From Amphibalanus amphitrite (Eukaryota; Arthropoda; Thecostraca; Balanomorpha; Balanidae), in contig NW_024882187.1 of the NCBI RefSeq assembly GCF_019059575.1, positions 1 through 64,000 on the forward strand: a stretch of DNA of 64,000 bases, written 5' to 3'. Numbering within the stretch: the first letter of the stretch is position 1; each line of letters starts with the position of its first letter. The position numbers were made by a program, and so were the translations under genes. The notes below the pieces were generated by a model, which saw only the letters and a program-made list of their open reading frames with translations, searched no databases and was not told where the DNA came from. Below, piece after piece: positions 24,765 through 63,490 of this stretch.

Positions 24765-27700
24765 GTGAGTCAAAGACTCCGGTCGCGGAGGACCGGCGAA
24801 TGAAAGTGGTCCTCGCTGCCGTGAGAGTGTTTCTTTGACTAGAATCGAACAGCGTGAAGCAAGGAAGTTTCACTGCCATATCCGCTATCGCATAATCAAT
24901 AATTTGAGAGTAATCTTCTTATCTATATCTATATCTATTCTTAGCTGACGTTTAATGCATAACATCATTGCTCTATCAGGTTATTTTCTGTAACAGGTGA
25001 TCACCATGTCACTCTATACTTCATACTGCGCTCAAGTATCGAGGAAATTCTCGTAACTCCCATCCCAATCGCTGCCCCAGTCAGCTGGGGCATTCCACGT
25101 CAAATCGAACAAAAATCGGCTGTTTTGCACCTTACCATCAGCGATTTCATTATAAATTTGTGAGCGAGTTCCTGTGTGGCCCCGGACATTACATTGATGT
25201 TTTTTGCACATTCTGGCCACAGGTCTTCTAAATATAGGGCATCAAATTTTTACAAAATGTTGAATCTTTATATTTTTGAACGACCATAACTTTGGTTGTA
25301 CTTGTTTGATTTGAATGAAATAAACCTTACTGTTTAGGTAATTTCTTAAGCATTTGTTTAGAATTGCACCTACTTAAATATATGACCTTGAAATTTGCTT
25401 AACTCTGTTCTTAAGCACAAATATTGAAATAGCAAAAAACACGTCACCTTCGATTTGGCTCATTTTCATATATTTTATTGCCTACCATATTCTTAACAAG
25501 CTGTGAAAAAATTAGAGTGGGCCATTCATAAGTTTTGAAGAAAATTGCACATATGCAAACGTATGTTAGCACGCGCAGTGGAGGGGGAAGAGCGAATTTC
25601 GCCCACCCCTCCTGTTTTTCGCCAATATCTCATAAGATTAATGCGAAATTAATTATGGCTACCTGTCAAGAATTGAACTGGACATCTCATCGTGCAAGCA
25701 ATAAGAAAATCGGTTCACAACTGTTCTAGTAATAGCGGTGTAAAGTGAACATCCTGTCGCCGCAGCGACGCGGCGACTCGGCAACCGCCGCCGACCGCTA
25801 CGCGCCGCCTGAATTGTAGACTGTGCCGGGACGGAACGGAACGGTTCCGTCTTTACATCGCGCTCCCTACCGCTGATTACGTTCGATTCGCGTCAAATTT
25901 TGTGAGAAGACTAAGAAATGTACAGGCAATCTTATGGTGAAAGAATTTTGAAAATCGGTTGGTAAACAATTGAAATATGAACGTGTAAACACAAAATTGT
26001 GATTGCTGCGTTTCCCGCATCGGCCGAGCCCGCCTCAGCCGGCGACATTTTACTCTTAGCAGGCCTCTTACTGCCATATTTATTATTGGATTAACTAGAA
26101 ATTCCCCATAAATACTAAAAAAATGTATGTTCTTTCGTATAGTGAAGATCAAAAGACGTGAAGATATCGTTGGGTGATAATGTTTTCGTTGAATTTACTT
26201 CATGATGCATTTCCACACGGCTCAAAATTCACCGCAAAATACCGTTTGCCTGAGACACTTTTACTATGGTTTGACTACGATGAATGCTTGCCTTGAATGC
26301 TTGACTACGATGACTATGCATTTCCATTCTCGCAGAGTTTGGGATATCACTTATCAGCAATCATTCATTTCAGAAAGTGTACACAAGCAAGCATGTCTTG
26401 ACTCTGTCTTTCAAGGTCACGCGCGGTTGCGTGATGTTGATGCATGAAAACGGCGTTTGCCGCGAAAGTTATGAATGGCCCACTCCAATTTTTTCACAGA
26501 TGGTTAGGAACATTGTGACGGACATAATATGTAAAAATTACTCAAATCGAAGGTGACGTGTTTTTTGCTATTTAAATTTTTCTGTTTTAATTCAAGGTCA
26601 ATTGCATTTCAAGGTCACTTCAATTTAATTTTATAATTAAAAATCAAAGCCTTATCAATTGCCTATAAGACCCTGTTAATATCATTTTGATACCAGAAAA
26701 GGAACCAGAGTTATAGCCATTTAAAAAATTGATGTGTGGCATTTTTCGCTATATTCGATGACCTATATCTCAGCGATACGTTATCAAATTTCGAAAATAT
26801 TATACTTAACTCAGTTTTGAACCATGCCCAGTCTGCCTACAAATTTTCAGAAAAATCGAAGGGGATGACGGATTTCGGTGTTTGATTTGACGTGGAATGC
26901 CCCAGCTGTTCGCTCCACGCTCCGCCTGGCCGCGGCTGGTCGGCGGTATTGGCTGTCACTGTGCCGTATTAGTGGCTGATGTAGCGCCGGCTGGCGGCCG
27001 CTCGCGGCGGTCGCTCGCGGTGCCTGTAACACCTCCGGGGCTCTGAACTACACCCCCCAGCCGGGGCCCGGCGGCGGGCGGACAGACCAGGCCGCCCCCG
27101 GGCAGGGACATCAGCGGAAACCGGCCATCACGGCCAATCAATGTGTCAGCAGCGGCGGCACTGACAAATGGAGACAGGGCACTGACGAAACACCTCATCG
27201 TTCGCCAGAATGTAAAGACATTTTACCTGTCTTGTTTTGCTTTGATTAATGATGGGAGGCTTAATGGCGCAATCAGAAGAAACTGAAATTAAAATAAAGC
27301 CATATCACACTACTTAAAAAAAATCCGTTAATGCAGAGTCGTATCATGGAAGCCACAGCAAGGAAACGATTAACGATTTTTCTTTTGACATTATGGGAGT
27401 TTCTCGCTTATTCAGCTTTTTTACAGGACCAATATCGCTATGTAATATTTGCTCCATTTTGCTTGCTCACATGTTTCCTTCACTTGATGTAACTTCTTTC
27501 CACCTATCACCATCAGAGCCACAAGGCCAATTGATCCCTCTCGTCTACCGAGTAACACCGGTACTCCCCAGTGACGCCGTTTAGTTATACCCCTCTGCAG
27601 GCTGTCGGCTGGGCAGTGTTACCCAGTGAAGTTGTATCACCCAGTGACGCGGTGTTCCCCAGTGACACCGTACCATCTCCCGGCAGGTTGTCGACTGGGC

Positions 27701-30700
27701 AGTGTTCCCCAGCGAAGGTATATCACCCAGTGACGCGGTGCTTCCCAGTGACGTCATACCCATCTCTCTCTGCAGGCTGTCGACTGGGCAGTCCGGCAGA
27801 GCCGTCGCGGTTCGAGAGAGTCCCCGAGAACCTCCAGCCGGGCACCCACGTGCTGGTGTTCGAGGCAGAGGGAGCCGCCGAGCTACAGCTGAGGCCCGTC
27901 AACAAGGTAAGGTGGTGATATCCAGCTGGGTGGGGTAAACAGCGCAAAAAATAGTGTCACATCAACATCGTCAACCACGCCGTTTGCCACCTTCCCCGTC
28001 CAGCAATAAACTATTAACTGTTATCTATTAACTGATTTATGAAAAAACGTCTTCATACCTATCTAAAGCCCTTTTCCCCCGTCCCCTCCAATTTCCTCGG
28101 TTCCGTTCCGCCGCAGCCCCGGTGACCGTCACAGTATGGTGCGCGCCCTATCGCCGGAGGGGGGGGGGGGGTGTTTTTGTTTGTCTCATTGCGCAGTCTC
28201 TCGGAGCGACCTCAGGTATTCACCGTCTGTGGCAGTGGCCGTCTCTTCCTCTCGGCACCAGCGGCCATGACCGGCACAAAGCACAGACTCGGCACAGAGC
28301 TCAGAGCGGCCGGGATGTGTGGCAATCGGCACTGTTTGTGGCAGGCAGATAGGTATTTTGAGGCATTTTTCTTAATGAGCGCTTCATTATTGTAGAAATA
28401 CCGACTACCGTGCATGCTACCTGACATTGATCATGCTCTTAACCCGCGCACCGACGGGGGGGGGGGGGCGGATATCCGCCCCCCCCCTGAGGTTTTTCGC
28501 GAATAGCGGGAAACCGCAGCGCGTAGCGCCGCGAAATTTGGTATGACTATTCCCTCATCAATTTTACACATGGTGTGCAATTTTGAACCTCCTACCTTTT
28601 AAGGTCAGGTCACCAGGTCACTTTGAATGACCCAACCTCAAGTCACTTTTTTGCAACTTTGTCACCGTGCCAGAGCTACAGTAGATGTCGGAGGCCTTTG
28701 AAAGTCGCAGGATGTTATTAGGTCATTAGTAGCTACAATTTGTATATCTCGGAATTTTGATATCGGTGACCTAAGGTCAGGTCAATTTCGCGACCTCCCC
28801 ATTATAAGTCAATGGGGGAAAAATCAACTCCCTGCTTTTACCACTAAAACGGGTCGGAATGGCCACATATACCATTCATGACTTCATATACGATCGACCG
28901 ACACTACCTTGAGGTCTGTTTTGCTGTTGGACAGCTGTGAGGTCATGTGACGTCATCAAAGGTCACCAAAGGTTTTTGGCCAATAACTCCGTACAGGAAC
29001 AAGATACAGCCGCGTGGATGGTCTCATTGTGTTCAGCTCGTCAAGACGCATCGAATGGTATACATGATGAACCTCGAGGTCACGTGACCTGAGGTCAACC
29101 TTTGACCTTGACCTTTCGAGGTCAACATATATATCATTCGATGCGGATTGACGCCATTTTGATTGATGCCATTTTGACTTTTTCGACCCCTGTGACGTCA
29201 TCTTTGACCTGACCTGAAAATGACCTTAGTAAAAATTGTAGATCTTGACCGTGCGTATCCGATGCCGTTTACCGCTTGTCGCTATCTTGCTTCGTTCTCG
29301 AGATCTCAGGGGGGGGGGGCGGTCATCCGCCCCCCCGTCGGTGCGAAGTTGGCGCAGACCCCCGTCGGTGCGCGGGTTAATTGATCCACCATAGCGCATA
29401 ACATTCGCACTCATTTAGCGAGACGCGTGGCTGAAGAAACGCACGTATTTTTCATAATCAGAAAGCTGCATTGGTGTTGTGTGATCGTTTGAGTGCCTTC
29501 TGCAGAGGTGTCCTACCGAGCTCCCCTCACGGCGTGCGTTCGTTTCAGGACGAGGACTACACGGACTATTTCCGGCCGGTGCTGCTGACCAACGACACGG
29601 CCGGTCTGGTGGTCTCCCAGCCGCTGACGTCACTGGTCCGGAGGCAGCAGCCCGTCTCCGTGGCCAGGTTCCGGGTGTTCTGCGCCAGCCGGCCACCGTT
29701 CACGGTGAGCAGAGAGGAGTGTCAGAGGGGTCTCCCAGCCGGCAGACAGTAGTGTTAGAGGGATCTCCCAGCCGGCAGACAGTAGTGTTAGAGGGATCTC
29801 CCAGCCGGCAGAGAGAAGTGTCAGTGTGGTCTCCCAGCCGGCAGACAGTAGTGTTAGAGGGATCTCCCAGCCGGCAGACAGTAGTGTTAGAGGGATCTCC
29901 CAGCCGGCAGACAGTAGTGTTAGAGGGGTCTCCCAGCCGGCAGACAGCAGTGTTGTGTCAGGGGGATCTCCCAGCCGGCAGACAGTAGTGTCAGTGTGGT
30001 CTCCCAGCCGGCAGACAGTAGTGTCAGAGGGGTCTCCCAGCCGGCAGACAGTAGTGTTGTGTCAGGGGAATCTCCCAGCCGGCAGACAGTAGTGTCAGTG
30101 TGGTCTCCCAGCCGGCAGACAGTAGTGTCAGAGGGGTCTCCCAGCCGGCAGACAGTAGTGTCAGTGTGGTCTCCCAGCCGGCAGACAGTAGTGTCAGAGG
30201 GGTCTCCCAGCCGGCAGACAGTAGTGTTAGAGGGGCCTCCCAGCTGGCAGACAGTAGTGTTAGAGGGGTCTCCCAGCCGGCAGACAGTAGTGTTACAGGG
30301 GTCTCCCAGCCGGCAGACAGTAGTGTCAGAGGGGTCTCCCAGCCGGCAGACAGTAGTGTTACAGGGGTCTCCCAGCCGGCAGACAGTAGTGTTAGAGGGA
30401 TCTCCCAGCCGGCAGAGAGAAGTGTCAGTGTGGTCTCCCAGCCGGCAGACAGTAGTGTTAGAGGGATCTCCCAGCCGGCAGACAGTAGTGTTAGAGGGAT
30501 CTCCCAGCCGGCAGACAGTAGTGTTAGAGGGATCTCCCAGCCGGCAGACAGTAGTGTTGTGTCAGGGGGATCTCCCAGCCGGCAGACAGTAGTGTCAGTG
30601 TGGTCTCCCAGCCGGCAGACAGTAGTGTCAGAGGGGTCTCCCAGCCGGCAGACAGTAGTGTTGTGTCAGGGGAATCTCCCAGCCGGCAGACAGTAGTGTC

Positions 30701-54700: not shown

Positions 54701-57700
54701 GCAGGCCGAGGTCGCGGTGTCCCTGGACGAGGGCGAGTACACGGACGAGGAGGTGGGGACCATCCAGCTGGCGGGGTCACCCCAGGACCGCGGCAGCGTC
54801 AGATTCAGCATCGCCGACGGGAACACGGCCCACCGCGTCTCCCAGGAGGGAGTCGTGTTCGTCTCGGGCAGCCTGGACTTCGAGCGGCGGCGCCGGATGC
54901 CGGTGGCGGTGCTTGTCTGCCCGCAGCTCTGCACCGACCTGGCCTCGGCGCTGCCGCTGACCGACAGCGTCCAGGAGGCCTGCCGGCACACCTGTGCCGA
55001 GGGCGCCGTCATCATCTCCCTGCGCGATGTCAATGATAACCCGCCGCGGTTCCTCTTCGTCAGCGAGATAGTGACGGCCAAACGCGGAATCCAGAACGAG
55101 CCGGAGCTGCCGTACGCGGCGTACAAGCTGCGCACCCCAGCCGTACTGGAGGAAGGTACCGTGGTTCTGAACACGACCACCTACGACGCAGACACATCCA
55201 GCGGAGAGGTACGGTTCCAGATGATCACCCCAGACGAGAGTTTCACCATTGACAGCGAGTCGGGTGTGTTGAGGACCACCAAACGCACTTCGTTCGGCGC
55301 CCGCACCCCCCGGCAGCTGGTGATTGCCGCCTACGACCCGGCGCGGCCCGGTCTGCGCAGCATGGCGCTGCTGGAGCTGGCGCCCGCAGACGTGGAGGAC
55401 GTGCGGCCGGCGCGCGCGCTCGACAGCACGGTGTACTCTGTCGAGGTGCCCGAGAACTCCGTGGTGGCCCGGCTGCCCGTGCCGTGGACGCTGACCGAGT
55501 CGGCCCCCCGGCCGCCCCACCGCTGGACCCTGCGGACGGTGGGGGATCCCGCCCCGGGGTTCTCCGCTGCCGTGGATGATGACATGCTGGAGCTGACCGG
55601 AGCCATCGACTTCGAGGAGCGGCAGCAGGTGTGGCTGCTGGTGACGCTGGAGTCGGGCGACCAGCCACAGCTGGACCGGAGCCCCGCAGAGGGTCCGACA
55701 GCCAACTCCAGCTGGGCGGCGGTCCCGGACCTGGGGTACCGGACCGCCCGCCGGCTGGGGTCCCCGCCGCTCCCGCCGCGCGTCCCCGCCCCCAGCCCGG
55801 AGACGCTGCTGTACAACCAGGCGCTGCTCCGGGTGGACGTGACGGACGTCAATGACAACTCCCCGCGGCTCAACGTCTCCAGACTGGCCGGCGTGGTGGG
55901 GGTGCCGTACGACGCCGGCTACGGCTTCACCCTCGTCACACTGCAGGTGGGGAGCAGGTTCATATCGGAGGAAAGTAGCACGCGCTCAGGGTTATTCACG
56001 CTTATCACACTGCAGGTCAATCCACATCTAGTGTGGAATAATTTTCGCTATTCGTGTGTAACAGTGTTCAGTAATCACCAAATAAGCTAGCACTTCCATG
56101 CTTCATTTTCGATATTTGCGCTCTAAGCGTAGGCGCTGAGTTGTCTGTGTGACAGAAATTTGCTGTTTTCAGGCCAGTGACCAGGACCACGGCGACAACG
56201 TCACGTTCCACCTCAACTCCAGCAGCAGCGACGTGCAGACGACGTTCAGCGTGGAGCCGCTAACCGGGGAGGTGAGGGACAGGCGCAAACGGTCATCTGT
56301 CGTCTTCTGCAAGGCCATAGATAGGGTCTTCGGATGGTTATCGGAAACGACCCGATAGGAACTACTGTTCCAATGTATAATGTATCAATGTGTAATGTAT
56401 GTATAATGTATAAGGTATGGTTGAGTTGCAATAAGTGATACCTACAACTTTCGCAAAGTGTAAACCGACAATCGTATTAGCTTGAAGGCCTATAGAACAT
56501 CCCTGTACTGATAACGCGACTCGGGGGCTCTTCACGTTACATCCAGCTTTAATGTATGACTGAATACTTGTATCATTAAGCAGCTGAAGCGGTAATGAGA
56601 TAATATTTCTCTCCTGGACCTCGCCACATGCTATGTTAATTATTGCTAACCTAGTTACGTCCACCGCAGGTGCGCCTGTTGCGTCGTGCCGACGTCTCCT
56701 CCCAGCGACTGCACCGTCTGGGACTGGTGGCCCGGGACGCCGCCAACCACACCGACGCAGTCACTCTGCTGGTGAGTACGGACTCTACTGGTGGCCCGGG
56801 ACGCCGCCAACCACACCGACTCCGTCACTCTGCTGGTAAGTACGGACTCTACTGGTGGCCCGGGACGCCGCCAACCACACCGACTCCGTCACTCTGCTGG
56901 TAAGTACGGACTCTACTGGTGGCCCGGGACGCCGCCAACCACACCGACGCAGTCACTCTGCTGGTGAGTACGGACTCTACTGGTGGCCCGGGACGCCGCC
57001 AACCACACCGACTCCGTCACTCTGCTGGTGAGTACGGACTCCGTCACTCTGCTGGTAAGTACGGACTCTGCTGGTAAGTACGGACTCTACTGGTGGCCCG
57101 GGACGCCGCCAACCACACAGACGCCGTCACTCTGCTGGTGAGTACGGACTCCGTCACTCTGCTGGTAAGTACGGACTCTACTGGTGGCCCGGGACGCCGC
57201 CAACCACACAGACGCCGTCACTCTGCTGGTAAGTGCGGACTCTGTCACTCTGCTGGTAAGTACAGACTCTACTGGTGGCCCGGGGCGCCGCCAACCACAC
57301 ACACTCTGTCACTCTACTAGTAAGTACGGACTCTACTGGTAAGTGCTGACTCAGTCACTCTGCTGGTGAGTACGGACTCCGTCACTTTGCTGGTAAGTAC
57401 GGACTCTGCTGGTAAGTTTTGACTCCGTCACTGTGCTGGCAAGTGCGGGCTTCGTCACTCTGCTGGTGAGTATGGACTCCGTCACTCTGCTGGTAGGTCG
57501 TCATCGTCGTCATCATCATCGTCAGGTGGAGGTGGTCTGCTGCGGGCGTGGGCGTTGGTGTAGGGGCTAGATCGTCAACTTAATCGTGAAAACCGTAAAA
57601 CGAACCGGCTTATTTATCGTGGCTGATTGATCCGAGGTGTTATAGAATGGAGGATTTATGCATTTTTAGGCTGTCTAGCGTTCACAAGTCACACAAGAGC

Positions 57701-60700
57701 CTTCAAACGAACAAAATGAATTGAAATTACGATCGTGTGTGCTCTCTTCTTTGTCATGCATTTCATTTCACGTTCGTGTGAGATCACTGTTTATTTATAC
57801 GTTGTTACGTTTCACGTTTTTGTACGCTCAGGTGTACGTGCTGGACTCGCGGGACATGCTGGTGGTGAAGCTGAACAGGACGGCCGCGCACGTGCAGCAG
57901 CACCGGCACTCCATAGCCAGGTGGGCCACTTTGACGGTGACGTCGTAATCTGCGTGACGTGACAGGCTGCGGCCGTTAGGTACCATCCGCTCAAGCCTCA
58001 AAGTTGGGAGTTTGAGTCACTGCCATTAGAGGATGGTGCTGACTGAAACAAACCAATGCTGACGAAAATATCCGCCCAATAGTTTGTGTGTTCTGCACGC
58101 AGCACGGCGACGTCGGCGTGCTGCGTGTGTCTCTTCACTGTCTGTATATAACTGTATGTATCTCCTGTACAGAGGCCTGAGCGCGCTGGCCGCCGCCGAT
58201 GTCCGCGTGCTGCGCGTCTCGCCCCACTGTCTGTATCTAACTGTAGGTATCTCCTGTACAGAGGCCTGAGCGCGCTGGCCGCCGCCGATGTCCGCGTGCT
58301 GCGCGTCTCGCCCCACTGTCTGTATCTAACTGTAGGTATCTCCTGTACAGAGGCCTGAGCGCGCTGGCCGCCGCCGATGTCCGCGTGCTGCGCGTCTCGC
58401 CCCACTGTCTGTATCTAACTGTAGGTATCTCCTGTACAGAGGCCTGAGCGCGCTGGCCGCCGCCGATGTCCGCGTGCTGCGCGTCTCGCCCCACTGTCTG
58501 TATCTAACTGTAGGTATCTCCTGTACAGAGGTCTGAGTACACTGGCCGCCGCCGACGTCCGCGTGCTGCGCGTCTCGCCCCACTGTCTGTATCTAACTGT
58601 AGGTATCTCCTGTACAGAGGCCTGAGCGCGCTGGCCGCCGCCGATGTCCGCGTGCTGCGCGTCTCGCCCCACTGTCTGTATCTAACTGTAGGTATCTCCT
58701 GTACAGAGGCCTGAGCGCGCTGGCCGCCGCCGACGTCCGCGTGCTGCGCGTCTCGCCCCACTGTCTGTATCTAACTGTAGGTATCTCCTGTACAGAGGCC
58801 TGAGCGCGCTGGCCGCCGCCGATGTCCGCGTGCTGCGCGTCTCGCCCCACTGTCTGTATCTAACTGTAGGTATCTCCTGTACAGAGGCCTGAGCGCGCTG
58901 GCCGCCGCCGATGTCCGCGTGCTGCGCGTCTCGTCCCACTGTCTGTATCTAACTGTAGGTATCTCCTGTACAGAGGCCTGAGCGCGCTGGCCGCCGCCGA
59001 TGTCCGCGTGCTGCGCGTCTCGCCCCACTGTCTGTATCTAACTGTAGGTATCTCCTGTACAGAGGCCTGAGCGCGCTGGCCGCCGCCGATGTCCGCGTGC
59101 TGCGCGTCTCGCCCCACTGTCTGTATCTAACTGTAGGTATCTCCTGTACAGAGGTCTGAGTACACTGGCCGCCGCCGATGTCCGCGTGCTGCGCGTCTCG
59201 CCCCACTGTCTGTATCTAACTGTAGGTATCTCCTGTACAGAGGTCTCAGTACATTAGCGGCCGCCGACGTCCGCGTGCTGCGCGTGTCTCCCCACTGTCT
59301 GTATCTAACTGTATGTATCTCCTGTACAGAGGTCTGAGTACACTGGCCGCCGCCGATGTCCGCGTGCTGCGCGTCTCGCCCCACTGTCTGTATCTAACTG
59401 TAGGTATCTCCTGTACAGAGGTCTCAGTACACTGGCCGCCGCCGACGTCCGCGTGCTGCGCGTCTCGCCCCACTGTCTGTATCTAACTGTAGGTATCTCC
59501 TGTACAGAGGCCTGAGCGCGCTGGCCGCCGCCGATGTCCGCGTGCTGCGCGTCTCGCCCCACTGTCTGTATCTAACTGTAGGTATCTCCTGTACAGAGGC
59601 CTGAGCGCGCTGGCCGCCGCCGATGTCCGCGTGCTGCGCGTCTCGCCCCACTGTCTGTATCTAACTGTAGGTATCTCCTGTACAGAGGTCTCAGTACATT
59701 AGCGGCCGCCGACGTCCGCGTGCTGCGCGTCTCGCCCCACTGTCTGTATCTAACTGTAGGTATCTCCTGTACAGAGGTCTCAGTACATTAGCGGCCGCCG
59801 ACGTCCGCGTGCTGCGCGTCTCGCCCCACTGTCTGTATCTAACTGTAGGTATCTCCTGTACAGAGGCCTGAGCGCGCTGGCCGCCGCCGATGTCCGCGTG
59901 CTGCGCGTCTCGCCCCACTGTCTGTATCTAACTGTAGGTATCTCCTGTACAGAGGTCTGAGTACACTGGCCGCCGCCGACGTCCGCGTGCTGCGCGTCTC
60001 GCCCCACTGTCTGTATCTAACTGTAGGTATCTCCTGTACAGAGGCCTGAGCGCGCTGGCCGCCGCCGATGTCCGCGTGCTGCGCGTCTCGCCCCACTGTC
60101 TGTATCTAACTGTAGGTATCTCCTGTACAGAGGCCTGAGCGCGCTGGCCGCCGCCGACGTCCGCGTGCTGCGCGTCTCGCCCCACTGTCTGTATCTAACT
60201 GTAGGTATCTCCTGTACAGAGGCCTGAGCGCGCTGGCCGCCGCCGATGTCCGCGTGCTGCGCGTCTCGCCCCACTCGGACGGAGAGCTGGTGGACGACTC
60301 TCACTCCGACGTCTGGCTGTACGCGCTCGAGCCGGCCACCAGCACACTGCTGAGCGCACAGCAACTCATGGCGTGAGTACTGTACCTACTGCTGCTGACA
60401 GTACACTGACACTACTGACAGTATACACTGCTGACGGTATACTGCTGACAGTACACTGCTGGAGCGAGCCACGAGTACACTACTGAGTGTCCAGCGACTG
60501 ATGGCGTGAGTACTGTACTGCTGCTGACAGTATACTGGCACTGCTGACACTATACTGCTGACAGTACACTGCTGCCGGTACACTGCTGACAATACACTGC
60601 TGACGATACACTGCTGACAATACACTGCTGACAACACTGCTGACAATTCACTGCTGATAATTCACTGCTGACAATACACTGCTGACAATACACTGCTGAC

Positions 60701-63008
60701 AATACACTGCTGACAGAACACTGCTGGGCGCCCAGCAACTGATATCGCGAGTTAACACTGGTCAGTGGTCACGGCTGATTTTTATTACAGTGCTGAGCTT
60801 CAGAATCGTTCCCCGTCGCCCCCGTCTGTCGCCCCCGTCCCCCACTGACCCCGCCCCCGCCGGTTGCAGCCGCCTGGAGAGCGCCGCGCCGGGGCTGTCG
60901 GGCGGCCCCCAGCCGGGGGTGCACGTGGCAGGGATGTGGCCCGCCACCGAACCGCCGCGAGGCTTCTTCACCAGCCTCAAGTTCATCATCGTGGGCCTGT
61001 CGCTGGCTATCTTCCTGCTGATGGTGGCTACTCTGGCGGTGCTCTGCTCCAAGAGCTGCAAACGGTCAGTGGTGCACAGTTACACATAGTGGGTGTGTGG
61101 AGATATCGCACTGGCAGTGCCCTGCTGCAGGGGCTGCCAGCGGTCAGTGGTGCCGATAAGTTTCATGTGCTGCAATATCGTGTGCTGGCGTACTTAGGAT
61201 CTGTTCACTGATGCCGTGCTCGTGATGCCATGCGTTCAGCTTCATCGAATAAGCCTGCTTGTCATTAATGCATATTAAACACGCATTGTCTCTCGCGCCC
61301 TTTGTCACCCGTTGCCGCGTCTCTGAAGGACTCGCGGTCACTCTCGGTCCCGTTTCTGTCGGTTTCTCTGTCTCTGACGGTCCATGTGATCCGTGTCCGC
61401 TCCAGGGACCGCAAGACGTCGCCGTACCCGCCGCTGACGCTGACGCCGGCCGCCAGCGGCTACAGCGGCACCCCGCCGCCCAGTGACGTCACTCAGATGA
61501 CGTCACACCAGCCGAGGGAGATGGTCGAGCGGCGCCGCAGTCCGCCGGCCGAGCGGGCGCCCGGAGCCCCCCTGGGTCTGGTCCTGGAGCCGCCCCTGTA
61601 CAGGTCAGTGACAGGTCACAGCAGACAGACCCCCTGGGACTGGTCCTGGAGCCGTCCCTGTGCACTGTGCAGTCAGTGACAGGTCACAGGTCACAGACAG
61701 ACCCCCTGGGTCTGGTCCTGGAGCCGCCCCTGTACAGGTCAGTGACAGGTCACAGGTCACAGATAGACCCCCTGGGTCGGGTCCTGGAGCCGCCCCTGTA
61801 CAGGTCAGTCACAGGTCACAGTAGACAGACCCCTTGGGACTGGTGCTGGAGCCGCCTCTGTACAGGTCATTGCAATCGAAGTGCCAAAGTCTTCTTCTGA
61901 TGCATAATTGCGGTGGTGCAACGGAAAGAGCCTAGGTATGAGGTAAAACGATTAATAAACTGAAACGAAGAAAATGTTGTAAAAGAGAGCATCTGCCGAC
62001 TGATGCATCATTTCATTCGAAGAAATCGACCCTCGTAAGTCGTAACTCGATGTAAACTACCTGTGGCCACCACGTTTAGGTTTCTGACGTGGCCCCGTCG
62101 CCCGTTTTCAGCAAGCCGTCGCGCCGGCTGGCCGCCACCCAGGTCTCGCCGGGCCACTATGTGGCCGACCCCAAGCAGATGTCGCAGACCGTGGCGCGCC
62201 GGCGCCGTGACCCCGGCCAGGGTCAAGGTCAGGGCGTCTCGCACGTGCGCTACGGCAGCCTCAACTACCCGCGCGCCGGCCGGGCGGCCAATCAGCTGGC
62301 GGCCCTGCTGACGCCCGAGCGGCCATTGGCCGGCGCCAACGTGCGCCGCCAGTCGGTGACCAATAGCATGGGCGACGGCACCGAGGTGGGCGTGGCCACG
62401 ATGAGCTTCTACAGCGAGTCGCCGTCCGACATGCCGCCCGTCGACTTCGGCCCCGGGTGAGAGCGGCGGGGCGGGACAGAGGGGAGGGAGTAGGTGAGGG
62501 CGGCGGAGCGGGACGGATGGGAGGAAGTGGGACATTCATGGGACAAGAGCGAGGCACGGCCTATCTGGCTCCATGGGACTAATTTTCTGGGCCTATTTTC
62601 CGGTGTGTTTCGGGAAGCTGGAGTCTATTTCCGAGCTATCCTATGTCGTCGAACCAGATTTCGTCAAATAAGTCCTCCCAGGCTCTCGAACTAAACAATG
62701 TGCAAGTAACCATCCCCCTATAGACTTTGGAGTTTGGGGTCAGTCTATGAGTATTTGATGCGGCGCGGCTAAATAGCAGTGCCCCCTGTGACCCGTTTCT
62801 ATGCGTCAGGTTCCGGCTGCGGGTGGACCCCTCTGTGACGTCACCGCCGCGACCCGGCGACGAGCGGCGCTTCGCCGACCCGTCGGCCGCGCACCCAGAG
62901 ACATCTACCGGCCACCTGCGAACTAACAGTTCGGACGCCCGCGGAGAGGAGTTTCTGGACTCTCTGGAGCCGGGGCAGTTCCCGCGCACCTGGTCCGTCA
63001 AACAGTGA
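24692..63008 (+). CDS. Cad99C: Cadherin-99C / protocadherin-15-like gene (23 coding exons, 1942 aa)
   Basis: Single-pass cadherin of the Cad99C/PCDH15 family. In Drosophila, Cad99C controls apical microvillus length and works with myosin VIIA; vertebrate PCDH15 forms hair-cell tip links (family knowledge). Exons: 24692-24764, 27776-27906, 29549-29704, 45857-45965, 46594-46802, 47518-47646, 48373-48558, 49799-49996, 50553-50728, 51136-51271, 51581-51837, 52358-52479, 52804-53000, 53290-53445, 53733-55946, 56173-56271, 56670-56771, 57832-57920, 60220-60372, 60870-61064, 61406-61603, 62112-62456, 62810-63008. They sum to 5829 nt; all phases match and all introns are GT-AG. Calcium-linker motifs: DVND near 133, DSDD 245, DLND 360, DSND 471, DTND 777, DVND 1177 and 1450. 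A PCDH15/CDH23-type membrane-adjacent domain spans about 1551-1655 and the transmembrane helix about 1669-1690. EC1 begins Cys26-Arg-Leu and has Cys113, like the paired cysteines of PCDH15 EC1. Counting degenerate linkers I get 11-13 EC repeats; the family usually has 11. Splice choices are mine, not from transcripts. Confidence 0.87.
25081..26909. mobile_element. Inverted-repeat (foldback-type) element, 1.83 kb, intron 1
   Basis: CAGCTGGGGCATTCCACGTC at the left end is repeated in inverse at 26890-26909. Beyond the ~25 identical terminal bases, two arms of about 450 bp remain recognisably homologous in inverse (GCAAAAAACACGTCACCTTC near 25432 and its complement near 26555; AGTGGGCCATTCATAA near 25516 and its complement near 26470). 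They enclose about 900 bp of unrelated sequence. No ORF is convincing and no target-site duplication is clear. Confidence 0.82.
27549..27790 (+). repeat. Exon 2 acceptor-edge repeat (3 copies, about 86-89 bp)
   Basis: The block GCAG|G(C/T)TGTCG(A/G)CTGGGCAGT occurs with exon-side starts at 27601, 27687 and 27776. Spacer units carry CCCAGTGACGCGGTG motifs. Only the third leads into exon 2; the first two are intronic copies of the acceptor and first ~17 exon bases. Confidence 0.85.
27776..27906 (+). CDS. Cad99C: Cad99C exon 2: EC1, first half (aa 25-68)
   Basis: Acceptor CTCTGCAG, donor AAG|GTAAGG, exit phase 0. It encodes the EC1 start, with Cys26 and the strand VPENLQPGTHVLVFEAEG. The acceptor and first exon bases also occur twice upstream (see the repeat at 27549-27790). 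This third copy is chosen because only it continues into a long cadherin-like reading frame with a good donor. Confidence 0.83.
28439..29380. mobile_element. TTAA-flanked non-autonomous element (942 bp, intron 2)
   Basis: TTAACCCGCGCACCGACGGG at the left and CCGTCGGTGCGCGGGTTAA at the right form inverted repeats with TTAA on both sides. Subterminal G-run/C-run hairpins lie at 28456-28487 and 29310-29338. The interior is rich in AGGTCA and TGACCT. No coding capacity. Confidence 0.88.
29549..29704 (+). CDS. Cad99C: Cad99C exon 3: EC1, second half (aa 69-120)
   Basis: Acceptor CGTTTCAG, donor CACG|GTGAGC, phase 0 at both ends. It encodes a DEDYTDYFRPVLL... segment that aligns by eye with the 'NVDYWVLLDP' part of PCDH15 EC1, and Cys113 (RVFCAS), the expected disulfide partner of Cys26. 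The exon's last ~40 nt and its donor are repeated at about 30991-31040, after a 1.3-kb minisatellite. Reading past the first donor meets a stop at 29748-29750. Confidence 0.83.
29716..31010 (+). repeat. 33-bp minisatellite in intron 3 (about 39 copies)
   Basis: The unit is GTCTCCCAGCCGGCAGACAG plus TAGTGT(C/T)AGAGGG, exactly 33 bp, so long open frames with 11-residue repeats appear on both strands (VSQPADSSVRG, LLSAGWETPLT). These are not genes. Subtypes (GTGTGG, GTTGTGTCAGGG) recur in blocks, showing higher-order duplication. The core GGTCTCCCAGCCG also lies inside exon 3 (29611-29623), so the unit may have come from the exon. Confidence 0.93.
30985..31045 (+). repeat. Second copy of the exon 3 3' edge with donor
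   Basis: GTGTTCTGCGCCAGCTGGCC...TTCACG|GTGAGCAGAGA matches 29678-29715 with two mismatches. The 33-bp array therefore lies between two copies of the exon 3 donor about 1.32 kb apart. Use of the second donor would retain the array, whose frame is closed by a stop at 29748. Confidence 0.88.
31046..38418. other. Intron 3, middle part
   Basis: No exon recognised. It holds about 12 units of GGCTGTGTCACCG at 32205-32380, a run of 12 G at about 32560, the MITE at 32814-33092, CTGTCTCTG-rich sequence at 34260-34410 and GC islands at 33.4-33.7, 34.4-34.8 and 37.2-37.5 kb. Confidence 0.55.
32814..33092. mobile_element. Short TA-flanked MITE (279 bp), intron 3
   Basis: TAGCCGTTTTCCCGACGG at the left and CCGTCGTGAAAACGGCTA at the right form inverted repeats ending in TA, as in Tc1/mariner-type MITEs. 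The interior repeats GGTGCAGATTTGGTCAAATC twice (about 32870 and 33036). A lone copy of the same terminus lies at 3894-3913. Confidence 0.65.
38419..39127. mobile_element. TTAA-flanked non-autonomous element, left part (interrupted)
   Basis: It begins TTAACCATCG and shares AAAGCGGCCGAT, TTTGACCTGTGG and CCATGTTTGGCCG blocks with the complete element at 48761-49653. It stops at GGGTCATTAAAC where the retrotransposon begins. Its continuation is at 42889. Confidence 0.8.
39128..42888 (+). mobile_element. Non-LTR retrotransposon, apparently full length
   Basis: It has a 5' untranslated part of about 400 nt (with a duplicated TCTTCGCTGCGCGGCGCCAG block at about 39136 and 39186), one long ORF, a TATG microsatellite near 42740, and a 3' (AAAT)n tail ending at about 42888. 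There are no terminal repeats. It sits in sense orientation in Cad99C intron 3 and splits an older TTAA-flanked element. No target-site duplication longer than a few bases is visible. ORF architecture and tail suggest the CR1/L2/Daphne/Jockey side of non-LTR elements; I cannot fix the clade. Confidence 0.85.
39525..42677 (+). CDS. Retrotransposon endonuclease-reverse transcriptase (1050 aa)
   Basis: One intact ORF. A Pro/Arg-rich N-terminus (about 1-118) is followed by an exonuclease-endonuclease-phosphatase domain at about 121-345: QLNVQS with N127, LSETWL with E154, GDVNIN with D269 and N271, STID with D310, and VSHRP with H343. The Asp usually before that His is Ser here. The reverse transcriptase spans about 585-860: NFRPISILPTIAKITE, HGFRANHATDTAL, LLDLSKCFD with D680, GSALGPLLY, and catalytic YADD at 770-773. 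It nicks target DNA and copies element RNA by target-primed reverse transcription (family knowledge). There is no separate ORF1. The lack of stops suggests recent activity. The 5'-most Met is used; an upstream start is not excluded. Confidence 0.92.
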   Translation: MHQDLLRCLTVLAVVRLLTLAAVPAPAPARAARAGRAHSGHDPGHVQLTEQVTATRPPRPRPCSAAAVSAPPAPSRAASDPVRPPAANRGAPRPTRRGVRSRRRGTRGGRIWRVGERPDQLYIAQLNVQSIKPKLLELRHDIAQHGYDVVVLSETWLKPTTPNRLLPVPGYQLLRRDRADGRGYGGVAVLVRETLAATVMDGPDQVTAGSKLESLWVQIRAGPQKVTLCSLYRPPVQTQARVTADLDELEQQLQRAITQNSGPIIVAGDVNINTINGGTAATRLRELLTTYSMQQHISEPTFRSSGSTIDMISSNRDVLRAGTLFCDYSPHNWSRVLVPIVSHRPVRCTLTGRGWRRLDVTEANRRLLDSDWSPVYRSDDPGEQWNSFLTVTIPILNSLIPARRMHIRNPTAPPVSEATKDLMARRRAALRASDRDRYKELNRQVRSAVRSDTREEIGRRIREGGPSSMWRSVRPVISGKRPTRPSPDADADTINQYFVSIGETTARQVNSAGPELAVRLPRVATGRFQVTPVTPEHLRRVVGRMANSTSCGADGLCVRFIKQCVDSICPVITHIVNTSLTSHTVPDSWKLALVHPIQKTPKSTDVSNFRPISILPTIAKITERVVYEQLFNYFTSHHLFSTSQHGFRANHATDTALVTVTDRVFEAMDRKDITLLCLLDLSKCFDVVPHSGLLKKLELYNVDTRWFVSYLAGHYQQVVTRDTRGADALSAPLPNPIGTYQGSALGPLLYSIYANDMPLYADEDAAIVQYADDTQVLVSGRPGDIDALTGSMERNLAQLSNWFGKNGMKINAKKTQLIALGTRQNLRQLSTVSIKFMGATVSGSPEVRNLGVIFDPCMTFSAHIDDVVRRCTGILTGLSHSKHSLPHSTLITLVQGLVISLIRYCISVYGTCNVTQTSRLQRVLNFAARVISGRRKFDHVSDVLRDLEWLSAHNMYTYHVLTLLKRTLVTAQPELLSENLVRRRHVHQRATRQDDMLHVPMIKSESGRRRFLFAAATAFNRLPPSMRDLDMRAFKRELRRHLLQQQRNDR
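42889..43045. mobile_element. TTAA-flanked non-autonomous element, right part (interrupted)
   Basis: It resumes with CTGACTTGGAAAGTCAGC, matching CTGACCTGGAAGGTCACC of the intact copy at 49453. It continues through CCGCGAAGCTCTAGCTTGAT and ends in a G-run/C-run near 43015-43035. The terminal TTAA is missing, so this end is truncated. Confidence 0.75.
43046..45651. other. Intron 3, 3' part
   Basis: No exon recognised. Tandem repeats: 43690-43850, four ~38-bp units of GGCTCGGTATAGTGGCCAGC plus GCAGGACCGCCGGCTGCG; 44790-44940, five ~34-bp units of GACTCGTGGTGACGGGACTC plus TCGTGCCGGGGG(T). The rest is GC-rich non-coding sequence. Confidence 0.6.
45652..45862 (+). repeat. Exon 4 acceptor-edge repeat (about 8 units)
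   Basis: Units of 24-30 bp of the form TTGCAGGGCTCACTGGTGTT(TGTGTGTTTG) end with the real acceptor at 45856. Five units keep TTGCAG preceded by a T/G-rich tract. The exon itself starts GGCTCTGACTCACTGCTGGTGT, so the repeat covers the acceptor and the exon start. Confidence 0.8.
45857..45965 (+). CDS. Cad99C: Cad99C exon 4: EC1/EC2 linker (aa 121-157)
   Basis: Acceptor TGTTGCAG, donor GCCAG|GTCAGA, enters in phase 0 and leaves in phase 1. It carries the calcium linker DVNDHPPVF and the next EC start VTVDELTPPG, close to PCDH15 'VNELTPVG'. Joining it directly to exon 3 keeps the spacing from Cys113 to the DxND motif seen in PCDH15, so no exon seems to be missing from the 16.2-kb intron 3. Both edges are repeated in the flanking introns. 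Confidence 0.87.
45938..46090 (+). repeat. Exon 4 donor-edge duplication plus GGTCAC repeats
   Basis: GGTCACTGTGGACGAGCTCA(C/T)CCCGCCAGGTC occurs at the exon end (donor GT at 45966) and again with GT at 46036, 70 bp later. The spacer is a series of GGGGTCACACGG repeats. Confidence 0.85.
46594..46802 (+). CDS. Cad99C: Cad99C exon 5: EC2 (aa 157-226)
   Basis: Acceptor CGCCCACAG, donor CCTCG|GTAAGC. It starts by completing Gly157 and encodes an EC2 body (IVVFDGIIAEDND...LEKPLDFEYGDRELNLTVTAS) with the usual xDFE/D-R motif of a cadherin repeat. It leaves in phase 0. Confidence 0.88.
46940..47345. repeat. 40-bp minisatellite in intron 5 (about 10 copies)
   Basis: The unit reads ACCACGGTATGGAGACTGCA followed by ACAGTGCACACAACAGTAGC, with point differences and one short unit near 47240. 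It fills most of intron 5. The open frames in it on the minus strand are repeat artefacts. Confidence 0.9.
47518..47646 (+). CDS. Cad99C: Cad99C exon 6: EC2/EC3 linker (aa 227-269)
   Basis: Acceptor GTCCGTAG, donor ACGCAG|GTGAGA, phase 0 at both ends. It encodes the linker DSDDQPPVF; the middle Asp-Asp replaces the common Asn-Asp, and PCDH15 also has a DGDD variant at its EC2/EC3 linker. The last ~60 nt with the donor recur several times in the following intron. Confidence 0.87.
47590..48240 (+). repeat. Exon 6 donor-edge repeat (about 8 degenerate copies)
   Basis: The exon end TACCGCGCCAGCGTCACAGA...ACGCAG|GTGAGA is copied with donor-like GT at 47755, 47850 and 47940. Shorter copies end near 47992, 48061, 48172 and 48225. 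Between them lie runs of AGAGTACAG. The first copy is 108 bp after the real donor (in phase), but intronic TAG codons intervene. Confidence 0.87.
48373..48558 (+). CDS. Cad99C: Cad99C exon 7: EC3 (aa 270-331)
   Basis: The acceptor is preceded by a run of about 14 C. Donor ATCAG|GTGAGC, phase 0 at both ends. It encodes EC3 with ILAYDADL, FSIDRETGRLTLV and FDRERLDQ, a textbook cadherin core. The leading ATG is an ordinary internal Met codon, not a start. Confidence 0.88.
48761..49653. mobile_element. TTAA-flanked non-autonomous element, complete (893 bp, intron 7)
   Basis: Ends are TTAACCCTCGCCGG and CCGGCGAGGGTTAA: inverted repeats with TTAA on both sides, as in piggyBac-type insertions. It has no ORF. 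The interior holds many AGGTCA motifs (e.g. GGTCACCTGAAGGTCAGGTC) and, near the right end, a G-run/C-run hairpin. Confidence 0.85.
49799..49996 (+). CDS. Cad99C: Cad99C exon 8: EC3/EC4 linker (aa 332-397)
   Basis: Acceptor GTTTTCAG, donor GACGAG|GTGAGG, phase 0 at both ends. It encodes the calcium linker DLNDNRPDF followed by the EC4 start with VQATDPDE. The preceding intron holds a complete TTAA-flanked non-autonomous transposon. Confidence 0.9.
50370..50560 (+). repeat. Exon 9 acceptor-edge repeat (6 copies, 34-36 bp)
   Basis: (T/G)CAG|GGCGA(T/C)AACGCCCGGTTCACACTGACC(T/G)TT units have exon-side starts at 50377, 50413, 50447, 50481, 50517 and 50553. Only the last is the functional acceptor I infer. 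Each copy keeps a pyrimidine tract and AG. Confidence 0.9.
50553..50728 (+). CDS. Cad99C: Cad99C exon 9: EC4 (aa 398-455)
   Basis: Acceptor TTCGGCAG, donor GACGAACG|GTGGGA. It enters in phase 0 and leaves in phase 2. It encodes GDNARFTYRLEDRSGAFGLD...LDRETRPLLQLDIFADELRPNVLDE, the EC4 body. Both ends sit inside tandem arrays of themselves: five acceptor-edge copies upstream and about nine donor-edge copies downstream. The acceptor chosen is the last copy, which alone continues into the domain. The donor chosen is the first. Confidence 0.83.
50721..50965 (+). repeat. Exon 9 donor-edge repeat (about 10 copies, 23-28 bp)
   Basis: The unit GACGAACG|GTGGGAAGGGAG(GGAG) starts at 50721, 50745, 50769, 50792, 50816, 50840, 50868 and 50896, with two shorter ones after. 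The exon frame stays open through the whole array to 50999 (ERWEGREDEWWEGRED...), so alternative donors at +24, +48 and +147 would insert short charged modules into EC4. Confidence 0.9.
51136..51271 (+). CDS. Cad99C: Cad99C exon 10: EC4/EC5 linker (aa 456-501)
   Basis: Acceptor GGTTTCAG, donor GGACAG|GTGAGG. The first T completes Arg456 with CG from exon 9. It encodes the linker DSNDNNPQF and the EC5 start (FVVEGNSSVGSVIGQ), leaving in phase 0. Confidence 0.88.
51581..51837 (+). CDS. Cad99C: Cad99C exon 11: EC5 (aa 502-586)
   Basis: Acceptor ATTTTACAG, donor CCCAG|GTGGGT, leaving in phase 2. It encodes SATDPDEAGNGRVRFSF and the EC5 body, ending in VLVRPRNVRPP where a DxNDN linker would be expected. 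PCDH15 is likewise degenerate at its EC4/EC5 linker (PPNNQSPP). This joint probably lacks full calcium binding. Confidence 0.87.
51825..51925 (+). repeat. Possible exon 11 donor-edge repeat (3 weak copies)
   Basis: CCGCCCAG|GTGGGTAGCGG is followed by ACCTCCCAG|GAAGGGG and GCCCCCAG|GTAGGCGGG at about 50- and 30-bp steps. The similarity is short and purine-rich, so chance is possible. Confidence 0.4.
52358..52479 (+). CDS. Cad99C: Cad99C exon 12: EC6, first half (aa 587-627)
   Basis: Acceptor CCGTTTCAG, donor GCACCG|GTACGT, entering with one base to finish Ser587 and leaving in phase 1. It encodes WVGKDVAPGSRLGQLTAGDPDGDSLTFRLRNGT, a compact EC start with a DPDGD motif, comparable to 'TDREGDSITYAIENGD' of PCDH15. 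Confidence 0.87.
52804..53000 (+). CDS. Cad99C: Cad99C exon 13: EC6, second half (aa 628-693)
   Basis: Acceptor CTCCCCCAG, donor GTCGAG|GTGAGG, phase 0 exit. It encodes LFEIEEGTGVIRVVSPLND...GVDVTDGTHL, the second half of EC6. The following linker reads VPENAEEAF and lacks the DxND acidic residues, so this is another likely calcium-poor joint. Confidence 0.87.
53290..53445 (+). CDS. Cad99C: Cad99C exon 14: EC7, first half (aa 694-745)
   Basis: Acceptor CTTTTCAG, donor TTCGAG|GTAAGT (a strong consensus), phase 0 at both ends. It encodes LTIGSLLNGTS...NETFEVTKKGELRLLKPLDFE. Several NxT/S sequons suggest N-glycosylation. Base composition is less GC-rich than in neighbouring exons. Confidence 0.85.
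53733..55946 (+). CDS. Cad99C: Cad99C exon 15: large exon, about EC7 to EC12 (aa 746-1483)
   Basis: Acceptor GTTCCAG, donor CTGCAG|GTGGGG. There are 738 uninterrupted codons, phase 0 at both ends. Calcium linkers: DTNDNGPRF about 777, DVNDNPPRF about 1177, DVNDNSPRL about 1450. Degenerate joints lie near 879 (VIGWGAAG), 1057 (VAVPRP) and 1300 (DVEDVRP). A Ser/Gly-rich, probably flexible segment lies at about 885-905. A cysteine insert with two CxxxC motifs (CPQLC, CRHTC) lies at about 1142-1165, just before the DVND at 1177. The sequence is very GC-rich. A second donor at 56016 would add 23 in-frame residues. Confidence 0.9.
55920..56020 (+). repeat. Exon 15 donor-edge duplication, in frame
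   Basis: TTCACCCTCGTCACACTGCAG|GTGGGG is followed 69 bp later by TTCACGCTTATCACACTGCAG|GTCAAT (GT at 56016). The frame is open between them, so the second donor would add exactly 23 residues before exon 16. Confidence 0.8.
56173..56271 (+). CDS. Cad99C: Cad99C exon 16: last EC repeat (aa 1484-1516)
   Basis: Acceptor TGTTTTCAG, donor GGGGAG|GTGAGG, phase 0. It encodes ASDQDHGDNVTFHLNSSSSD...FSVEPLTGE, the middle of the last EC repeat, comparable to EC11 of PCDH15. Confidence 0.87.
56670..56771 (+). CDS. Cad99C: Cad99C exon 17: end of last EC repeat (aa 1517-1550)
   Basis: Acceptor CCACCGCAG, donor CTGCTG|GTGAGT, phase 0. It encodes VRLLRRADVSSQRLHRLGLVARDAANHTDAVTLL, the last strands before the membrane-adjacent domain. 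The 3' part and donor are tandemly repeated from here to about 57.5 kb. The first donor is preferred because later ones shift frame or follow a stop (frame closes at 56903). Confidence 0.86.
56728..57500 (+). repeat. Exon 17 donor-edge array (about 8 long units, 64 bp)
   Basis: The exon tail CTGGTGGCCCGGGACGCCGC...CACTCTGCTG|GT(G/A)AGTACGG recurs every 64 bp, with GT at 56772, 56836, 56900 and 56964. After that come mixed long units and shorter CTCTGCTGGTAAGTACGGA units to 57.5 kb. Nearly every unit keeps a consensus donor. Confidence 0.92.
57832..57920 (+). CDS. Cad99C: Cad99C exon 18: start of membrane-adjacent domain (aa 1551-1579)
   Basis: Acceptor TACGCTCAG, donor ATAGCCAG|GTGGGC, exit phase 2. 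The VYVLDSRDMLVVKLNRTAAHVQQHRHSIA segment resembles the 'IYILRDDQRVKIVIN' and 'QLDMQVIVSNVPPTLVEKK' starts of the CDH23 and PCDH15 membrane-adjacent domains. This resemblance is the main reason to place the gene in this family. Confidence 0.85.
58095..60285 (+). repeat. Exon 19 acceptor-edge array (24 copies, 89 bp)
   Basis: Exon-side starts run from 58173 to 60220, exactly 23 x 89 bp apart, plus a partial unit before. Each unit holds TATCTCCTGTACAG|AGGCCTGAGC, the first ~50 exon bases and ~30 bp of intron (CTGTCTGTATCTAACTGTAG). Subtypes (GGTCTGAGTACACTGG, GGTCTCAGTACATTAGCGG) alternate. Minus-strand 85-residue open frames in it are artefacts. Confidence 0.96.
60220..60372 (+). CDS. Cad99C: Cad99C exon 19: membrane-adjacent domain (aa 1580-1630)
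   Basis: Acceptor CTCCTGTACAG, donor ATGGC|GTGAGT. It encodes RGLSALAAADVRVLRVSPHSDGELVDD...DVWLYALEPATSTLLSAQQLMA; the VYA/LYA strand and 'LxAQQL' helix fit the PCDH15 domain. This acceptor is the last of 24 near-identical acceptors spaced by 89 bp. Only this copy continues past 'VSPH' into the domain; the others run into intronic sequence and a stop. Confidence 0.84.
60325..60760 (+). repeat. Exon 19 donor-edge copies and CACTGCTGACA repeats
   Basis: The exon end CACTGCTGAGCGCACAGCAA...ATGGC|GTGAGTACTG is copied at about 60456-60525 (CAGCGACTGATGGCGTGAGT) and in decayed form at about 60716-60758 (CCCAGCAACTGATATCGCGA). Between them about 20 units of 12-14 bp (ACACTGCTGACAAT) fill the intron. 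Confidence 0.85.
60870..61064 (+). CDS. Cad99C: Cad99C exon 20: transmembrane segment (aa 1631-1695)
   Basis: Acceptor GGTTGCAG, donor AAACG|GTCAGT. It encodes an extracellular Gly/Pro-rich stalk and then the hydrophobic segment FIIVGLSLAIFLLMVATLAV (about aa 1669-1688), followed by Cys-Ser-Lys-Ser-Cys-Lys-Arg. The basic stop-transfer puts the C-terminus in the cytoplasm. Membrane-proximal cysteines could be palmitoylated (inference). Confidence 0.9.
61040..61160 (+). repeat. Exon 20 donor-edge duplication
   Basis: CTCTGGCGGTGCTCTGCTCC...AAACG|GTCAGTGGTGC at the exon end is repeated in diverged form at about 61112-61155 (ACTGGCAGTGCCCTGCTGCA...CAGCG|GTCAGTGGTGC), 78 bp later. Confidence 0.75.
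61406..61603 (+). CDS. Cad99C: Cad99C exon 21: cytoplasmic tail, part 1 (aa 1696-1761)
   Basis: Acceptor CGCTCCAG, donor TACAG|GTCAGT. It encodes a Pro/Ser/Thr-rich, probably disordered tail (KTSPYPPLTLTPAAS..., ERRRSPPAERAPGAP, LGLVLEPPLY). The last ~35 nt and donor recur four times downstream to 61.87 kb. Confidence 0.83.
61575..61870 (+). repeat. Exon 21 donor-edge array (5 copies, about 63-68 bp)
   Basis: CCCCTGGGTCTGGTCCTGGA...TGTACAG|GTCAGTGACAGG occurs with GT at 61604, 61738, 61804 and 61867. One further copy near 61670 has lost its donor (TGCAGTCAGTG). The intronic part of each unit is a CAGGTCACAGGTCACAGACAG motif. Confidence 0.92.
62112..62456 (+). CDS. Cad99C: Cad99C exon 22: cytoplasmic tail, part 2 (aa 1762-1876)
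   Basis: Acceptor CCGTTTTCAG, donor CCCCGG|GTGAGA. It encodes KPSRRLAATQVSPGHYVADP..., a basic ARRRRDPGQGQGQG stretch, and FYSESPSDMPPVDFGPG. Potential phospho-Ser and Tyr sites are visible, but I recognise no named domain. The tail probably recruits actin-linked partners, as in Drosophila Cad99C (inference). Confidence 0.84.
62810..63008 (+). CDS. Cad99C: Cad99C exon 23: C-terminus and stop (aa 1877-1942)
   Basis: Acceptor TATGCGTCAG. G completes Gly1877, then 65 codons and TGA at 63006-63008. It encodes FRLRVDPSVTSPPRPGDERRF...EEFLDSLEPGQFPRTWSVKQ. The terminal residues are not a classical class I PDZ ligand. The motif around the stop codon (AAACAGTGACC) is repeated about a dozen times just after it. 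Confidence 0.82.
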
Positions 63009-63125
63009 CCGAAACAGGGACCGAACAGGGACCGAACAGTGACGGAAACAGTGAGCGAAACAATGACGGAAACAGTGACGAAAACAGTAACCGAAATAGT
63101 GGCCGAAACAGAGTGACCGATGCGG
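62995..63125 (+). repeat. Stop-codon-edge tandem repeat
   Basis: The CDS end AAACAGTGACC is followed by about 12 degenerate 10-13 bp units (GAAACAGGGACC, GAACAGTGACG, GAAACAGTGAGC, GAAACAGTGACG and similar). The repeated motif includes the CAG-TGA of the real stop, so the coding/UTR boundary has been copied outward. Confidence 0.8.
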
Positions 63126-63490
63126 GGGCCGAAACGGACCGAACAGTGAGCGAGACAGAAGGGAGTGCTGGGACACGGACAGTGCCAGTGATATGCGGTC
63201 AAACTGCAGTGAACCTGTGACCGGCCGTCTGTTCCAGCGAGCTATGCCTGCGTGTCGGTGTGAGAGAACCTTTATTGTGTGGTAGAGATGTAACATTTGT
63301 AAAAAAAAAACGTGCACAAAGCTACCCCACGCCGAACCAAAGTGCTCACAAAGCGAAGGATGCATAACACAGCGATGTAAAGACGGTAACTGTGACGCCG
63401 TGGGCAAATACTGGTGCGACGTCCAATGCTTGGACATCGAGATGAGCGGGCACAAAGTCATGTGTAAATAAATAAAGTGTTTTACTTGCA
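63009..63490 (+). other. Cad99C: Cad99C 3' UTR
   Basis: It starts after the TGA at 63006-63008 and probably ends just after AATAAA at 63471-63476, giving about 480 nt. The first ~120 nt are a degenerate tandem repeat of the stop-codon motif. A run of 10 A lies near 63300-63310. Confidence 0.65.
63471..63476 (+). promoter_or_regulatory. Polyadenylation signal AATAAA
   Basis: Canonical hexamer in the context TAAATAAATAAAG, 463 nt after the stop codon, followed within 40 nt by a T/G-rich stretch (TGTTTTACTTGC and TTTCGTCTGTT). Confidence 0.7.

Follow-up and report, generated by a model that had tools for sequence, protein, structure and literature searches.

Boundary-spanning repeats in lancelets and in a barnacle cadherin gene

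Tandem repeats that span exon-intron boundaries have been described in amphioxus under the name of mirages. According to the accessible text of two papers (PMC3087553, PMC3902484), they are present in Adh3, the globin genes BflGb6 and BflGb9, and TnC, and PGBD5 is likened to them. They lie on the 5' or the 3' side, their unit lengths vary by locus, and many copies carry AG or GT. Haplotypes differ in copy number, and the data on Adh3 and the globins suggest that splicing is undisturbed. New introns may arise from mirages, as PMC3087553 suggests, citing the Rogers model, in which introns are gained by tandem genomic duplication. All mirage cases found in these sources are from lancelets. No crustacean mirage was found in a literature search that included the accessible text of PMC8270832 and PMC8917513 and was thin on subscription journals.

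The window is a stretch of 64,000 nucleotides, positions 1 to 64,000 of contig NW_024882187.1 (C690 below) of the barnacle Amphibalanus amphitrite. An earlier note on this DNA, which described exon edges repeatedly copied into introns, knew of no named system like it; the mirages are such a system. The features match wherever they can be tested, and it is probable, jointly with the account of their origin given below, that the barnacle arrays are mirage-type minisatellites. They differ from the amphioxus cases in being in a crustacean, in affecting at least 10 edges of one gene, and in having a measured excess in placement. Somatic instability is a further trait of mirages. Mirages in a crustacean would mean either a repeated origin or a general tendency hidden by short-read assemblies.

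The gene in the window is a cadherin gene with 22 coding exons (E2 to E23) in a hand-made exon model. The model reads open for 1917 residues up to one stop at the end, and its splice signals are AG at 22/22 acceptors and GT at 21/21 donors. The first 853 residues of the predicted protein match Pfam Cadherin (E 3e-62), and one transmembrane stretch is recognized by eye. Among the 120 relatives listed, for which candidates had to be 0.55-1.75 times as long as the query, the best is a protein from the goose barnacle Pollicipes pollicipes (P0001) that resembles protocadherin-16, with 58% identity over 92% of the predicted protein. The only protein under the name of A. amphitrite among these 120 is one dachsous-like protein, which is not the window gene; edge copies may trouble gene predictors. 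There were no Rfam matches at the gathering threshold, and a known structured RNA was rejected. The coding part and the arrays are as follows.

27776..63008, + strand: coding part, exons 2-23 (open frame, Pfam Cadherin match, Pollicipes alignment)
27557..27797, + strand: array at the exon 2 acceptor; unit length about 86 bp; exonic part 22 nt
29705..31040, + strand: array after exon 3; 33-bp unit, 38.6 copies; far end is a copy of the exon 3 end with its donor
45648..45864, + strand: array at the acceptor of exon 4 (weak); 8 nt into the exon
45928..46065, + strand: array at the exon 4 donor; offset 71 bp; exonic part 38 nt
47596..48229, + strand: array at the exon 6 donor; unit length about 95 bp; exonic part 51 nt; 5 additional copies, 5/5 with GT
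50354..50577, + strand: array at the exon 9 acceptor; unit length 36 bp; exonic part 25 nt
50714..50969, + strand: array at the exon 9 donor; unit length 24 bp; exonic part 15 nt; 8 additional copies, 8/8 with GT
56718..57503, + strand: array at the exon 17 donor; unit length 64 bp, with shorter variants; exonic part 54 nt; 16 additional copies, 15/16 with GT
58102..60280, + strand: array at the exon 19 acceptor; unit length 89 bp, 24.4 copies; exonic part 61 nt
60325..60752, + strand: array at the exon 19 donor; offset 133 bp, and a 14-bp array
61033..61157, + strand: two-copy duplication at the donor of exon 20; offset 78 bp
61560..61876, + strand: array at the exon 21 donor; unit length about 66 bp; 3 additional copies of the donor
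62453..62532, + strand: 37-bp two-copy repeat at exon 22 (weak); start 4 nt inside the exon
62997..63160, + strand: 12-bp array at the stop codon, from the stop codon into the 3' flank

Copied exon edges

An edge was counted as copied when the 24-mer at its junction was matched at 19 or more of 24 positions on the intron side, within 600 bp. Copies are present by this measure at 10 of the 43 splice edges: the acceptors of exons 2, 9, and 19, and the donors of exons 4, 6, 9, 17, 19, 20, and 21. An eleventh edge, the 3' edge of exon 3, is copied once at a distance of 1326 bp, outside the 600-bp limit. Weaker cases are the exon 4 acceptor (16/24, a single AG copy), the exon 22 donor, and the stop codon, which lies inside its 12-bp array and has a best junction match of 17/24. 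The 3' edges of exon 15 (14/24) and exon 11 (13/24) score no higher than the remaining edges. The earlier observation on this gene is largely right: the claimed duplications are seen at ten edges and at exon 3, weakly at the exon 4 acceptor and the stop codon, and at background level for exons 11 and 15.

The 12 segments at splice edges enter the exons by 4-61 nt, and, as in mirages, the repeats span the exon-intron boundary on both 5' and 3' sides. Units or offsets range from 12 to 133 bp, each different. The consensus units are all unlike one another, without one sequence family common to the sites. This rules out a single dispersed transposon, as the earlier note had concluded from the differing lengths and sequences, and units particular to each locus are a further likeness to mirages. 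Among copies with up to 6 mismatches in 22, at the 12 edges examined, GT is present in 35/37 donor copies and AG in 29/29 acceptor copies. The offsets of the donor copies fall in mixed reading frames, and therefore the use of many of the copies would break the frame.

Protein conservation in Pollicipes extends over a large share of the exonic portion of the arrays, for example in exons 17, 19, and 21, as read by eye from an alignment that covers exons 2 and 3 poorly. Because of this conservation, the exon is probably the source of the copies and the intron the recipient.

A second contig, C163, carries exons 16 to 23, with matches of 80-97% identity except for exon 17 (51%), where the match extends into the array. 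C163 is taken here as the other haplotype; a close paralogue is the alternative. The distances between exon starts, window minus C163, are 73, 151, 1994, 188, 141, -258, and -20 bp. If C163 is the haplotype, the exon-start distances of the two differ by -258 to +1994 bp, a length instability as between haplotypes with mirages. The largest difference is between exons 18 and 19, which are 394 bp apart on C163 and 2388 bp apart in the window. The 24-copy array of the 89-bp unit before exon 19 is missing on C163, where there is space for at most one unit, and no copy of the unit on C163 was found among the 53 matches listed. The spacing differences indicate that the arrays behave as unstable minisatellites. 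At C163:223995-226087, exon 23 is split, with query residues 394-428 and 426-459 1.9 kb apart; this is an insertion, or an intron in one copy only, and the window has no such split. Two other contig pairs, C96/C1146 and C151/C597, are 93-96% identical over the stretches compared and look like separated haplotypes.

Boundary-spanning repeats are a real feature of the barnacle, are present in more than one gene, and are of a known kind. In the ankyrin gene next door on the same contig, copies are present at 3/7 acceptors, a count that leaves aside the acceptor of the fourth exon, and at 0/8 donors. In a 4.9-kb stretch of this gene, 3/3 segments span an exon start. The gene, recognized by eye from its ankyrin repeats, lies on the minus strand at C690:64001-84000, and three of its exon starts are repeated upstream. 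In L002, a part of this region, tandem repeats with a period of at least 7 make up 53%. The best-scoring match in the homologue search for this gene is 35% identical over 53%.

An exon end of dachsous on C134 is present threefold, in units of about 40 bp. A. amphitrite protein P0007 matches C134 at 99-100%, and its annotation places the join at the exon-side copy. On C96 and C1146, the paralogous junction is accompanied in each contig by a duplicate that is shorter and of another kind. The intact open frame of the window gene and the annotated join of P0007 bear on splicing only indirectly.

Placement of the arrays relative to exon ends

The tests of whether exon edges are affected more than by chance disagree. 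Base by base, edges are no richer than introns in the window gene: 19-20% of the intron positions are also copied, against 10/43 edges. Over two measurements, copies were counted at 19-23% of this gene's intron positions, and the mean in random pieces is 4.8%.

Tests on whole arrays give a different picture. Among TRF arrays with a score of at least 100, 10/17 contact an edge, against 4.5 expected (P 0.0015). In the 45.0-63.2 kb part alone, 9/12 do so against 5.9 expected (P 0.04; 0.03-0.13 across the settings tried). The number of edges contacted is not raised under free placement of the TRF arrays (11/44 against 8.5 expected, P 0.28). Of the self-copy segments in 45.0-63.2 kb, 12/16 contact an exon edge against 4.87 expected (P 5e-5), where the null is placement in introns or entering an exon by at most 100 bp, segments wholly inside or swallowing an exon are omitted, and one of the contacted edges is the stop codon. 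P is at most 3e-4 in 16 settings.

The segment test was extended to five stretches not chosen for the pattern, located in dachsous, in further cadherin loci, and in the neighboring ankyrin gene; additional cadherin stretches that had been located did not enter it. There, 6/13 segments contact edges against 2.68 expected (P 0.014; 0.003-0.13 across settings), with some exon ends approximate; the six include a paralogous junction pair (C134, C96) and one low-complexity case (the second donor on C134). In 18 random 10-kb pieces, 100 segments were counted, or 0.56 per kb (102 with a cut looser by one base). Nine exon-like frames from these pieces, picked by eye among 60 listed of 98 and possibly including non-exons, have an array at the edge in 0/9 cases.

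The pairing of splice motifs was counted genome-wide. The donor motif MAGGTRAGT occurs 24170 times as singles and its backward form 26346 times. Pairs 15-45 bases apart number 492 for the donor motif and 229 for the backward form, 2.3 times as many per single, although pairs inside one array are not independent. As clusters, among the matches listed up to contig C133, there are 47 against 22 backward (P 5e-4). Without seven likely mutual copies the count is 40 against 22 (ratio 2.0, P 0.006), with the backward control list kept unthinned. Mutual copies were recognized by near-identical letters on C1/C16, and also on C13/C59 and C14/C55; four further places have the same 34-base length as the C1/C16 pair. 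The factor at true donors may exceed 2.0-2.3, because real donors are only part of the matched motifs. Acceptor motif pairs show no excess genome-wide, with 191 against 248 backward in raw counts unscaled by singles. Many acceptor-motif pairs on different contigs have one common length near 57 bp, and some donor-motif pairs share a common 34-base form; both suggest dispersed repeats.

Ordinary minisatellites also consist of head-to-tail units, here of 12-133 bp, and the intron lengths differ between the two contigs as expected of them. The barnacle arrays differ in being tied to exon ends beyond random placement of segments. An association with exon edges, which randomly placed minisatellites would lack, is found in the segment tests and the donor clusters; the base-wise test, the TRF edge count, and the acceptor motif pairs are contrary to it. 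The earlier note had expected a link to exon boundaries beyond that of ordinary minisatellites and had proposed testing the placement of tandem repeats against splice junctions over all genes of the genome; placement was tested here for the window gene and the five other stretches. The link is borne out for the arrays that contact edges, and not for the number of edges contacted or base by base. The over-representation of exon ends, donors at least, among duplication sites is a new quantitative hint.

Profile of the copies and origin of the arrays

On the donor side, the fraction of positions with a copy is 0.29-0.32 within 100 bp of intron and 0.295 in the last 10 nt of the exon. Deeper in the exon it falls to 0.22 at 10-30 nt, 0.04 at 30-60 nt, and 0 beyond, and farther into the intron it climbs, reaching 0.60 at 200-800 bp. 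Around acceptors the fraction is 0.13-0.16 up to 100 bp from the edge. The profile does not peak at the junction.

What can be seen at the locus is the copies and how their number varies; the following steps are inferred. A local tandem duplication would happen to span an exon end, leaving the exon and its own splice site whole. The spare copy would thereby land in the intron, where it should be near neutral. Slippage or unequal exchange would multiply the copies on the intron side, so that haplotype lengths diverge, and duplications within exons would mostly be removed. Compared with intron interiors, exon ends, or at least donors, would also see more such duplications arise or survive. As the cause of the excess we favor a higher duplication rate on exonic sequence generally, of which only edge-spanning events would survive. 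This explanation as a whole, mirage-type minisatellites formed by near-neutral edge duplications and raised at exon ends, is the likely one. Selection against repeats inside exons, offered earlier as one of two causes, is consistent with the absence of copies beyond 60 nt in the exon on the donor side, but alone it cannot lift edges above introns. For the excess, the chief competitor of a higher duplication rate is that arrays persist longer when they are anchored on a conserved exon.

A bolder form of the favored explanation is possible, though we consider it doubtful: exon ends would be a true mutational hotspot for tandem duplication, several-fold above introns. Splice sites would then keep being duplicated, and the exon edges would drive the length of introns and perhaps also their birth. 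If exon ends duplicate more than introns, they would provide a natural test case for how the spliceosome passes over decoy sites identical to the real ones, and a stock of sequence from which new introns could be made.

An unlikely source of the arrays is random placement of ordinary minisatellites in a gene that is simply rich in arrays, with selection against those inside exons. The window gene is indeed rich in copies relative to random pieces, its edges equal its introns base-wise, and the edges contacted are not above free placement; the segment tests and the genome-wide excess of donor pairs argue against this reading.

A mechanism at the splice junction itself, such as breaks or template switching at donors, or the splice motif as a seed of microhomology, is more unlikely still. 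The excess of donor motif pairs, not shared by acceptor motif pairs, would fit it. The exon share of the unit, in contrast, ranges from 0.11 to 1.0 and is compatible with a uniform distribution (KS P 0.74, 13 arrays), which indicates that units fall anywhere across the edge and that the junction is not the cut site; the ankyrin gene is affected at acceptors only. A junction-specific cut was rejected on the register of the units, and a duplication mechanism aimed at the junction, as the earlier note suggested, is not supported. Slippage driven by a GC-rich edge, from the same note, found no support either: array ends in random genome sequence are nearly independent of GC, at 0.9-1.5 per kb across GC classes, and the GC explanation was rejected.

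It is very improbable that the arrays are relics of new introns, created by duplication of an exon segment bearing AGGT as in the Rogers model. The duplications do carry splice signals as that model has it, PMC3087553 suggests that new introns may come from mirages, and exon 23 is split on C163 and unsplit in the window. As read from the sequence, however, the copies adjoin their own exon edge and carry the intron flank of that edge; an existing edge is copied into its own intron, and no new intron is shown in the window. An assembly artefact, which the earlier note would have seen in copies lacking from another individual, is the least credible reading of the whole pattern: the 24-copy array is missing from C163, but the many unrelated units have diverged copies, spacings on C163 differ at several introns, and the same structure is present in other genes, with an annotated protein crossing one such site.

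Other candidate elements lie in the window. Intron 3 contains an open frame of 1057 codons at 39504-42677 on the + strand, in which a reverse transcriptase with an endonuclease part is recognized by eye, perhaps from a non-LTR element. The segments at 28449-29380 and 48760-49655 look similar to each other by eye, with TTAA-like ends and runs of G or C, and are perhaps a non-autonomous element. Elsewhere in the genome, contigs C640, C1366, C1447, C868, and C1044 show repeated myosin matches near positions 376-435, spaced by several hundred to about 2,500 bases, as expected of alternative exons.
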